From IMG/VR virus record IMGVR_UViG_3300044568_001950, positions 1 through 60,357 of that record: a stretch of 60,357 nucleotides of DNA. One strand, given 5' to 3'. The notes beneath the pieces were generated by a model that had not been told where the DNA came from, searched no databases, and was given only the letters and a program-made list of their open reading frames with translations. Made by a program: the position numbers and the translations under genes. Of the stretch, positions 5,481 to 42,386 are shown piece after piece (the first letter of the stretch is position 1; the number at the start of each line of letters is the position of its first letter). This DNA is from a virus.

Positions 5481-5764
5481 TCAGTGTTCAATCCCCCGTG
5501 CTTCTCGGTGGCATAAAGGTAGCTACCACCGAAGGAAGAGGCCACAATGCCGAGGAATTGGCTCAGCGCATGGCCGACAAGATTGTATATGTGGGAGGAA
5601 ACTCCCATCCAGCAATACGCGACCAAGCGATCGCTTTTAAGGCAGCAGTGAAAGCTGTTTGCTTGTTTTATTTAAAAGAAGCGGTCAACCAGGATCGCGC
5701 GACCATTGCCCACCGCTTGCGGGAGGCTGGTTACCCAGACTTAATTAATCTTTTAGGAGAGTAA
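5477..5764 (+). CDS. Small conserved phage protein
   Basis: 95 residues, mainly helical, with a C-terminal REAGYPDLINLLGE. Similar small proteins often follow adaptor genes in environmental podoviruses; the function is not known to me. ATGA overlap with the upstream gene. Confidence 0.75.
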   Translation: MISVQSPVLLGGIKVATTEGRGHNAEELAQRMADKIVYVGGNSHPAIRDQAIAFKAAVKAVCLFYLKEAVNQDRATIAHRLREAGYPDLINLLGE

Positions 5765-5766
5765 AA

Positions 5767-6204
5767 ATGGCTTTCTCTGGCAATTACATGTGCACAAGCT
5801 TTAAGCAGGAGATTCTGCAGGGCGTGCATAACTTTACGGCAAGCACCGGAAACAACTTTAAACTGGCTTTGTACACCAATGGCGCTACATTTACGGCGGC
5901 TACCACTGCATATACGTCGGCCGATGAAGTTTCTGCTTCAGGAACTTATTCGGCGGGGGGTGGTTTGTTGACTAACGTAACCCCCACGACTTCGGGTACG
6001 ACGGCTTTTACGGACTTCAACGACCTGTCGTTTACTAGTGCCACCATCACGGCTTATGGCGCGATGATTTATAACGACTCAGCAGCGGGTGACCCTGCAG
6101 TATGTATTTTGGATTTTGGCGGCCCGAAAACGTCCACTGTTGGTACGTTTACGATCATTTTCCCAACAGCAGATGCAACTAACGCAATTATTCGGATTGC
6201 TTAA
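5767..6204 (+). CDS. Beta-rich tail or virion protein
   Basis: 145 residues with GNNFKLALYTNGATF near the N-terminus and a Thr/Ser/Gly-rich remainder ending FPTADATNAIIRIA. I recognise this family from many tailed phages of freshwater bacteria, where it sits among tail genes. No functional residue can be pointed to. Preceded by AGGAG at a normal distance. Confidence 0.75.
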   Translation: MAFSGNYMCTSFKQEILQGVHNFTASTGNNFKLALYTNGATFTAATTAYTSADEVSASGTYSAGGGLLTNVTPTTSGTTAFTDFNDLSFTSATITAYGAMIYNDSAAGDPAVCILDFGGPKTSTVGTFTIIFPTADATNAIIRIA

Positions 6205-6219
6205 TTAGGAAATGGCTAC

Positions 6220-7350
6220 GTGGCAACCTACAGCGGCTGGGGAGAGGGTTATTGGGGCCAAGTCCCATGGGGCCAAGAGCTTGTTGAGGTTGATTTACAA
6301 GGATGGGGCTTTGGTAACTGGGGCAGTCAGGTCTGGGGCGGACAAAACGCGGGTTTGCAAGCGCAAGCCCTCGTTGGCACCGTCACGGTCAATGCTGTCC
6401 GAAACGTTACCGTCTCGTTCGATGCGTGGGGAAGTTCGGCATGGGGAGCAGGAAGCTGGAGCTATGGAACACCGCTTCCTGCCGCGTCTGGCCAAGTCGG
6501 AAGCGTTACGCTTGCAACAGGATCAAACGTCAGTGTCACCGGAGTACAAGGGACAGGCCAAATTGGTCAAGTTACAGTCGGCGAAGGGACTGGAGTCCTC
6601 GTCACCGGAGTCCAGGCTAATGGATTCATTGGCACAACCTCATTCCGGGCAGATGTTGACGTCTACGTTGCGCCACCAGGATGGGGAGCAGAAGGTTACG
6701 GCATTGCAGCATGGGGCTTTGGCACCGGAGGCCTATCGGCTGATGGCGAGGTTGGGTCGGTTAATGCCGTCCCGGTCACAAATGTCTTTGTCACTGGTGT
6801 CCAGGCAAACGGCTTCGTTGGCGTTGCCACGGCAACCGGAGCAGCAAATGTCAACGTTATCGGGGTCCAAGGCACCGGCCAGGTTGGATCTGCCACGGTC
6901 ACTGGCACGGCAAATGTCACGCTCACGGGCGTATCCGCTCAGGGATTTGTTGGTGCTGCCACGGTTACGGCTGGGGCAAATGTTAACGTTACTGGCGTTC
7001 AGGGTACTACCCAGCTTGGCACGGTCGTCGTTCGTCAAGACGTTGCGGTTAGCGTTACTGGGGTCCAAGCAACTGCCAGCGTTGGCTCGGTCACTATTTC
7101 TCTGGCTTTGGACGTCTTTGTCACAGGCGTCCAGGCAGTTGGTCAGATCGGCCAAGCAGCGGCTGGAGGCCAAAGTTTTGTGTACGTTACGGGCGTTCAA
7201 GCGGTCGGTTACGTTGGAAACGTCACAGTTTGGGGCGTGGTTAATGACAACCAGGCCGCTAACTGGCAAAATGTCGATGATTCCCAGTCCGGCACTTGGG
7301 TGGTCGTCGATGATTCTCAATCCTCAACATGGACTCGAATAGCAGCTTAA
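6220..7350 (+). CDS. Tail protein of GVQ-x-G-x-VG beta repeats with WG segments
   Basis: 376 residues, starting at GTG 6220. A competing ATG at 6212 opens an equally long ORF in another frame, but it is 1-2 bases from the AGGA at 6206-6210, whereas GTG 6220 is correctly spaced and only this frame shows regular protein repeats. About ten units of roughly 18-25 residues (NVxVTGVQAxGxVGxVTV) are interrupted by Trp-Gly-rich stretches such as GWGEGYWGQVPWGQ. The end carries a DDSQSxTW repeat twice. Probably an elongated beta structure on the tail; the repeat also occurs at the end of the 4423 product. Confidence 0.75.
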   Translation: MATYSGWGEGYWGQVPWGQELVEVDLQGWGFGNWGSQVWGGQNAGLQAQALVGTVTVNAVRNVTVSFDAWGSSAWGAGSWSYGTPLPAASGQVGSVTLATGSNVSVTGVQGTGQIGQVTVGEGTGVLVTGVQANGFIGTTSFRADVDVYVAPPGWGAEGYGIAAWGFGTGGLSADGEVGSVNAVPVTNVFVTGVQANGFVGVATATGAANVNVIGVQGTGQVGSATVTGTANVTLTGVSAQGFVGAATVTAGANVNVTGVQGTTQLGTVVVRQDVAVSVTGVQATASVGSVTISLALDVFVTGVQAVGQIGQAAAGGQSFVYVTGVQAVGYVGNVTVWGVVNDNQAANWQNVDDSQSGTWVVVDDSQSSTWTRIAA

Positions 7351-41016: not shown

Positions 41017-41021
41017 CTCGA

Positions 41022-41313
41022 GGTATGGCATGCCAAGATAAGGCATGGTCAGGTAGTGTAGGGCGCGGTTCGGTGTGGTTAGGTGCGGTTAGGCTAGGCG
41101 CGGCACGGCTCGGCAATGTTCGGCAGGGCTAGGTTGGGTATGGTGAGAAGTGGTCCGGTATGGTGAGGTATGGGTTTCTTAATGGAGCTTGGTTGGGTTT
41201 GGCAGGATTGGCCCCGGTGAGGTGTGGCTAGGCTTCATTAAGAAGCCCGTAAGGGCTTTATCTGGAAGGGCAGGGCGGGGCATTGTCTGGCTAGGTCCGG
41301 TGCGGTACGGTTC
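41022..41313 (+). repeat. Degenerate GGYNN pentamer array (non-coding)
   Basis: From 41022 to 41171 there are 30 consecutive 5-base units in one register; 25 of them start GG followed by C or T, while bases 4 and 5 vary freely. A second block (41191-41233, about 9 units) and a third (41264-41313, 10 units) follow in shifted registers, separated by hairpin arms. A 5-base period is incompatible with codons, so the signal is in DNA or RNA structure. On the + strand it gives runs of GG every 5 bases, able in principle to form two-tier G-quadruplexes. Confidence 0.85.
41172..41258 (+). promoter_or_regulatory. Mutually exclusive hairpins (attenuator-like)
   Basis: GGGTTTCTTAATG (41172-41184) pairs with CATTAAGAAGCCC (41236-41248) over 13 positions, one of them G-U, enclosing the second pentamer block in a 51-nt loop. 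The same AAGCCC (41243-41248) can instead pair with GGGCTT (41253-41258) in a tight GTAA-loop hairpin. The two folds exclude each other, the usual layout of an attenuator or riboswitch expression platform. Confidence 0.6.
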
Positions 41314-41331
41314 CCCACGTTGGGGGTTTTT
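41313..41331 (+). terminator. Terminator in the leader of the 41350 gene
   Basis: CCCCA (41313-41317), loop CGT, TGGGG, then GTTTTT. It ends only about 5 bases before the AGGAG ribosome site of the gene at 41350, so that gene is expressed only if this signal is bypassed or opened. Confidence 0.65.
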
Positions 41332-41349
41332 CATATAGGAGAAAGTAGA

Positions 41350-41967
41350 ATGGCTAAGTCCAATTTGAAAGTCGTTAGTGATGTAACCAATGGCGGCAAG
41401 AGCGCCATTGAACAGGGTTTCCCTTATGCTGTAGCTGTACGGGCTCAAGGCGCGGCGGATCTGTTGTTCCACCGTTGGAACTGCGAGTCAGTCGATGCGA
41501 AGTCCAAGGCCGCCAAGAACTCAGCGGCCAAGAAGACAGATGACATCGAGTCCTACGTTTGGAGAAACGAAAAAGATGAACTCTGTATCCCAGGGGAGTA
41601 TTTTAGGCAGTCCATTATCCATGCTGCGAAATTTAAGCAAGACCCCCGTTCTCCGCGTAAATCCGCGATGGATCTCTTCAAAGCCGGGGTCGTTTCACTT
41701 ACTCAGTTGGCGTCACTTGGTAGCGATGAGTGGGACTACCTTGACACTCGTCGGGTCACAGTACAGCGAGCCGGAGTTAATCGAACAAGACCTGCCATGC
41801 GCATCGGATGGGAAGTGGATATACAGTTTCAAATACTCACCCCTGAGTATATCGACCCCCACCTTTTTCAAGACGTACTGAACACGGCAGGCCGCCTCGT
41901 AGGCGTTGGAGACTTCCGCCCAACGTACGGACGTTTTAACATCACAAACTTTGAGGTGCTCTCATGA
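41350..41967 (+). CDS. Unknown protein with GVGDFRPTYGRF end
   Basis: 205 residues from ATG 41350 (TATAGGAGAAAG upstream). Contains LCIPGEYFRQSIIHAAKFKQ, then SPRKSAMDLFKAGVV, and ends RLVGVGDFRPTYGRFNITNF. I know this as a phage protein of unknown function; the Gly-rich GxGDFRPxxGRF end resembles RAMP/Cas7-type RNA-binding proteins, a loose similarity only. It is the gene controlled by the GGYNN leader. ATGA overlap with the next gene. Confidence 0.75.
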   Translation: MAKSNLKVVSDVTNGGKSAIEQGFPYAVAVRAQGAADLLFHRWNCESVDAKSKAAKNSAAKKTDDIESYVWRNEKDELCIPGEYFRQSIIHAAKFKQDPRSPRKSAMDLFKAGVVSLTQLASLGSDEWDYLDTRRVTVQRAGVNRTRPAMRIGWEVDIQFQILTPEYIDPHLFQDVLNTAGRLVGVGDFRPTYGRFNITNFEVLS

Positions 41968-42386
41968 TTAAAAAGCCTGCCAAGAAAGCGAAAGGTAAGC
42001 CCCTATCCCGTACGGTAAAGCGTACGCAAAAAAGTGCGGTTAAGAAGGCGAAAGGTAAGCCCCTATCCCGTACGGTAAAGCGTACGGTCAAGAAGGAGAA
42101 ACTTACGCCGCTGGCCCAGCTCGTTGCAAAGTGGGACAAGGACCAAGGGCCACTGCCCAGTCTTTACGACACGGCCACCCAGCTTGATGACGTGGTCACC
42201 ACGCTCACCAATATCCAGCACCTGATGGACTCCGCCCTGAATGACTGCGTGGACCTCACCAACAACGACCGCGCGCTTTCCTTACTCTACCTTGCGCACG
42301 GGATGGTTAAGGGAGTGATCGATAAGACCGACCCGCTAATCTCGGACCTTTACCGCATCAACCGGGCCACGTTGGACCTAAAGTAA
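41964..42386 (+). CDS. Protein with basic tandem repeat N-terminus
   Basis: 140 residues. Residues about 6-42 are a duplicated Lys-rich unit (KKAKGKPLSRTVKRT twice, 20 residues apart) followed by VKKEK, then a helical acidic-neutral domain. The basic arm resembles histone H1-like nucleic-acid-binding tails. It may act with the 41350 protein, to which it is ATGA-coupled. Ends tail to tail with the HslV-like gene, overlapping 9 bases. Confidence 0.7.
   Translation: MIKKPAKKAKGKPLSRTVKRTQKSAVKKAKGKPLSRTVKRTVKKEKLTPLAQLVAKWDKDQGPLPSLYDTATQLDDVVTTLTNIQHLMDSALNDCVDLTNNDRALSLLYLAHGMVKGVIDKTDPLISDLYRINRATLDLK
41982..42086 (+). repeat. 45-bp direct repeat, 60-bp period, within the 41964 gene
   Basis: 41982-42026 and 42042-42086 differ by one base. 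Near-identity at the DNA level, including synonymous positions, indicates a recent duplication. Confidence 0.9.

Follow-up and report, generated by a model that had tools for sequence, protein, structure and literature searches.

Organization of the locus

The window, by which we mean the whole 60,357-nucleotide stretch of viral DNA that was analysed (IMG/VR record IMGVR_UViG_3300044568_001950), was scanned on both strands with an array detector, and a single array of NNGGY pentamers was found at 41019–41313 with a score of 153.7. The array is followed on the same strand by a gene starting at 41350. The text of a published preprint describes VIPR, a phage-borne CRISPR-like RNA-guided DNA-binding system consisting of the Vipr protein and vrRNAs (PMC13142463; bioRxiv 10.64898/2026.04.26.720920). 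According to that text, Vipr is an ancestral RAMP that binds vrRNAs in which 9–16 YNNGG repeats precede a structured 3' tail, and DNA is recognized through the NN positions with a one-nucleotide skip (PMC13142463). In these terms, the features of the locus are as follows.

41020–41174, + strand: pentamer block A, with 31 NNGGY units that share a single phase (26 contain GG) (unit parse, array detector)
41172–41190, + strand: 5' arm of the long stem, starting in the last unit of block A, ATGGG (folding, covariation)
41189–41233, + strand: pentamer block B, nine units, seven of them with GG, enclosed by the stem (unit parse; comparable loops in L002, L003, L010 and L011)
41230–41248, + strand: 3' arm of the long stem (covariation)
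41243–41258, + strand: competing hairpin AAGCCC-GTAA-GGGCTT, 3' of block B, candidate vrRNA tail (fold, covariation)
41262–41311, + strand: pentamer block C, ten units, nine of them with GG (unit parse)
41312–41331, + strand: terminator-like hairpin and T run at which the transcript or its last vrRNA may end (folding, near leaders)
41350–41967, + strand: vipr gene (P0001), encoding a 205-residue RAMP protein (phrog_4652; hmmsearch, AF2, Foldseek, VIA-align)
41964–42386, + strand: candidate vap (Vipr-accessory) gene, 140 residues (ATGA overlap with vipr)

Block A putatively supplies the guide portion of at least one vrRNA and block B putatively amounts to about one vrRNA guide. The 31 single-phase units of block A exceed the 9–16 repeats per vrRNA given in the preprint text. 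Tandem YNNGG units stand beside vipr with GGY conserved and NN variable, as is characteristic of VIPR: between the arrays of the window and of DSL-LC04, an uncultured lake phage that was the sole GenBank phage matched in DNA and protein searches with the sequence of the window, 36% of the NN positions and 9% of the GG positions differ. No promoter was found by consensus. At the start of the array, the segment ATGGCATGCCAAGATAAGG (41025–41045) includes a palindrome-containing stretch, GGCATGCC, that, in contrast to the variable guide positions, hardly changes in any of the eight near leaders. It could be an element close to a promoter or one that binds a protein.

The 41350 protein and its assignment to VIPR

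When the family profile of P0001, built from 52 Vipr homologues, was used in hmmsearch, a single PDB chain was retrieved, namely the Vipr of SUSP1 (36pp_D, E 2.9e-10). The AF2 model of the protein (pLDDT 85) matches Csm3/Cas7 chains (Foldseek, 7.7e-8; VIA-align, Z 12.6 over 159 residues). The 41350 protein is therefore a Vipr as defined, that is, a small RAMP protein with an RRM core and a G-loop that is homologous to SUSP1 Vipr. In PHROGs it matches only phrog_4652, a family of unknown function, and no family in Pfam, NCBIfam or PADLOC was above threshold for P0001 or for its 140-residue neighbour.

A set of 80 IMG/VR loci encoding relatives of the 41350 protein was compared. NNGGY arrays lie within 900 nt of the vipr homologue in 77 of them, and this distance holds for 111 of the 114 same-strand arrays. 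The array is upstream only in 25 loci, downstream only in 26 and on both sides in 26. The 41350 gene and the neighbouring array form a VIPR locus and, since VIPR has already been published as a preprint, this locus adds a new member to these systems.

As far as the preprint text describes SUSP1-type VIPR (PMC13142463; PDB 36pp), the likeness extends to a RAMP protein with a G-loop (GVGDFRP.YGRF versus GVGDWRPRFGRF), to phage-borne YNNGG arrays beside the gene with a short second gene behind vipr, and to the one-nucleotide skip signal, seen here at the level of the family. The window differs from the SUSP1 type described there in that the array is solely upstream of vipr, a long stem surrounds one pentamer block and the candidate vap gene is without a family match. 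The ORF at 41964–42386 adjoins vipr in every near relative (L002–L009), overlapping the vipr stop codon in the window; the model of its product (pLDDT 74.8) has a lysine-rich, basic, disordered N-terminus followed by helices, and the ORF may be a vap gene. The RAMP proteins of Class 1 CRISPR systems (Csm3/Cas7) have their fold in common with the 41350 protein, whereas the window has 5-nt repeats and a single small RAMP gene, and neither a CRISPR array nor any further cas gene was noticed in it.

Several other VIPR-bearing loci show features of their own. In many of the loci L039–L047, L049, L051, L052, L065, L070, L079 and L082, the sequence downstream of vipr encodes a small protein that begins with ELxLPxPPSxNHYxRR, a helicase-like ORF or both, and these loci are perhaps another VIPR type; the small protein presumably resembles RusA resolvases. 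The leaders of L014, L019, L020 and L022 contain a repeated structured unit between pentamer blocks (for example GCTGYGCAGCGTACAG...GATGCGTAAGCATC), which is probably another tail class and for which no Rfam match was obtained in L014, L020 and L022. A Hammerhead_II ribozyme is present at L073:2555–2621, well away from the array of that locus (5669–7229).

The guide code

In the skip test, 208 guide tracks from the homologous loci were matched to 0.78 Mb of non-array sequence of these loci, and at a score of at least 15 the numbers of matches for skips of 0, 1, 2 and 3 nt were 1, 50, 1 and 5, respectively. The 50 matches with a skip of one are not independent events, as many of them pair a single array (L061) with sites that are homologous to each other; the other skips show nothing similar. 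The one-nucleotide skip signal is thus reproduced in the family of the 41350 protein.

The guides of the window itself gave no above-threshold match in the 0.78 Mb of the skip test, and their exact one-nucleotide-skip patterns found 0, 0, 0 and 0 sites in viral_contigs. Patterns for block C and for two stretches of block A matched nothing in 16 records of related phages when as many as three mismatches were permitted. Further candidates were rejected as chance matches: one homologous site in eight contigs, which was without extension and in which the skipped base did not fall on a wobble position; a single 16-base match of block C, in which the skipped base did coincide with the wobble base but which again was without extension and within chance; the same site in two Terribacillus contigs of genome_contigs, also without extension; and one site, off the wobble position, for the block B pattern of related phages.

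Matches between VIPR phages were also observed. The second array of L061 (L061:7134) matches, by the one-nucleotide skip (22/30), a site that precedes vipr by about 400 nt in several other VIPR phages (L039:4619, L045:4559, L046:1946, L051:4569 and L052:4551). A guide at L068:949 matches by the same skip within vipr of L042 (L042:5550), as if VIPR phages targeted each other's vipr, to judge from the sequence match.

The long stem and the hairpins

The original prediction placed a stem of 13 positions at 41172–41184 and 41236–41248, looping out the second pentamer block. The stem is real and in place and does enclose block B, but its length was understated: the core consists of 19 pairs, 41172–41190 with 41230–41248, and arms of 20 nt (41169–41188 and 41232–41251) are 85% complementary. 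Counting G-U pairs extends the stem to as many as 27 pairs. RNA folding and covariation in homologues both bear it out. Its minimum free energy is −43.2 kcal/mol (z −4.7), and none of 200 shuffles folded equally well. Seven stems of six phages were registered by hand, a spacer standing in for each loop. In this alignment 95.4% of the cells pair, and eight of the 19 pairs are changed on both sides, compared with a shuffle mean of 3.5 such pairs (0 of 500 shuffles reached eight) and at most two in slid controls. The stem is thus a conserved base-paired structure with strong covariation in related phages. Stems of at least 15 pairs accompany 18 of 94 arrays but only five of 470 shuffles; those of near relatives span 18–28 pairs with G-U allowed. 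The loop holds nine pentamers in the window and 9–12 across the window, L002, L003, L010 and L011. In L004–L006 the stem is kept and the looped pentamer block is lost, leaving a loop of only 14 nt, so that enclosing a guide is not the sole role of the stem.

The hairpin at 41243–41258 (−11.5 kcal/mol, z −4.66) persists in six stems that represent five phages, where two of its pairs have changes in both partners, and in the window it forms a perfect G-C pair where the long stem offers just G-U; its T tract is poor. The proposed competition between stem and hairpin for AAGCCC is real but local, with both folds conserved: a fold in which the hairpin is imposed is 4.6 kcal/mol less stable and still contains the inner 18 stem pairs, so that the competition is limited to the outer part of the stem. 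A third hairpin with a T run just before the ribosome site was likewise found as predicted, at 41312–41326 with the T's at 41327–41331 and AGGAG (41337–41341) about 6 nt beyond; although it is weak (−7.7 kcal/mol, z −0.8), it is present in all seven near leaders that were folded. Each block is thus followed by a paired element, block A by the covarying stem, block B by the 41243–41258 hairpin and block C by the T-run hairpin, at putative transcript ends.

Interpretation of the paired elements

The original prediction took this leader to be an attenuator that decides whether the downstream operon is read. In a cis-acting attenuator of this kind, the choice between the stem and the 41243 hairpin would set termination at the T-run hairpin and hence expression of the 41350 operon. 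The likeness to transcription attenuators and leader switches lies in the mutually exclusive pairing upstream of a gene, and both folds are conserved, the hairpin pairing being kept by changes independent of the 5' arm; the terminator-like hairpin also stands right before the ribosome site in seven of seven near leaders. However, an attenuator has to lie 5' of its gene, and in the homologues the array and its module are not bound to that side. The array is exclusively downstream in 26 of the 80 loci, L008 carries the stem and hairpin module twice and far upstream, and L007 retains the array, the T-run hairpin and the gene but has neither the stem nor a 41243-type hairpin; L004–L006, in turn, have lost the looped block though not the stem. 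Moreover, the stem is favoured by the 4.6 kcal/mol given above, the alternative folds have most of the stem in common and no link was seen between the switch region and the T-run hairpin. On the basis of this locus comparison and of the absence of any Rfam match in the window at the gathering score, the attenuator or riboswitch is rejected as highly improbable, and the leader-switch reading, plausible as it was, is corrected as wrong. The accompanying suggestion that the array is a sensor binding a protein or RNA holds for the binding of a protein, which by homology is Vipr, but by the same homology the array is a guide-RNA array and not a sensor.

Regulation could also be superimposed on VIPR function, with Vipr putatively binding or cutting its own nascent leader and so setting read-through into vipr, such that the amount of protein follows the guide supply. 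The array and vipr lie on one strand with just the terminator-like hairpin in between, and according to the preprint text SUSP1 Vipr binds such RNA (PMC13142463), but this arrangement is impossible in the loci with downstream-only arrays, a third of the total, and we regard such autoregulation as unlikely. The long stem may also be a host RNase III processing site which frees the enclosed guide, by analogy with the stems around rRNAs, although this is less likely than not. The lengths of the near-relative stems (18–28 pairs, G-U allowed) and the 9–12 pentamers enclosed in five of them would suit such a site, whereas the stems of L004–L006 and L008b enclose no guide and such stems are missing from other VIPR clades.

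The reading that we prefer, and consider very probable, is that the region 41020–41331 is a VIPR vrRNA array, with the paired elements as its ends or processing elements, and that the 41350 protein is its Vipr. It is directly supported by the protein family and fold, the association of array and gene, the one-nucleotide skip signal of the family and the covariation of the stem and hairpin. Points against it are the length of block A, the negative target searches for the guides of the window, the negative promoter search and the 14-nt loops of L004–L006. The stem encloses about one guide, and in the SUSP2 locus the arrays, by eye, also run through ATGGG into an apparent stem-loop tail, although the hairpin tails of the window differ in sequence from that tail; we infer that the paired elements most probably mark the ends of vrRNAs or serve their processing, rather than acting as a leader switch. 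VIPR arrays that are staggered, with overlapping vrRNAs, are mentioned in the preprint (PMC13142463, fig. S18), and a guide block inside the apparent tail of another would equal an overlapping vrRNA; the nested-stem arrangement may or may not correspond to the arrays called staggered in that text.

In the mechanism that we propose, one precursor transcript would carry the three blocks of 31, nine and ten units, each closed by a paired element: the long stem for A, the 41243–41258 hairpin for B and the T-run hairpin for C. The GGY motifs would be covered by Vipr subunits, leaving the NN dinucleotides to read the DNA target with a one-base skip. The long stem would most likely be an end or processing element of one of two kinds: it may form the tail of vrRNA A and surround vrRNA B, or it may act as a double-stranded clamp that is cut to release vrRNA B. 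Sharing its 5' strand with the stem, the 41243 hairpin may cap vrRNA B once the outer stem has been opened or cut. It is conceivable, but rather improbable, that a selector is built from the nested stem together with the hairpin that shares its strand, in which folding or Vipr binding picks the outer (A) or the inner (B) guide from one transcript. If this were true, the phage would ration its guides, a form of RNA-level control that is absent from the text of the VIPR paper (PMC13142463).

In conclusion, the skip signal provides an independent check of the one-nucleotide skip code in a family beyond the two detailed in the preprint text, and the covariation-backed stem could help to explain the cutting or capping of vrRNA precursors, a point that the preprint text leaves open (PMC13142463). 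These findings place a group of uncultured aquatic phages, relatives of DSL-LC04, among the VIPR systems, which have been proposed to be ancestors of CRISPR.
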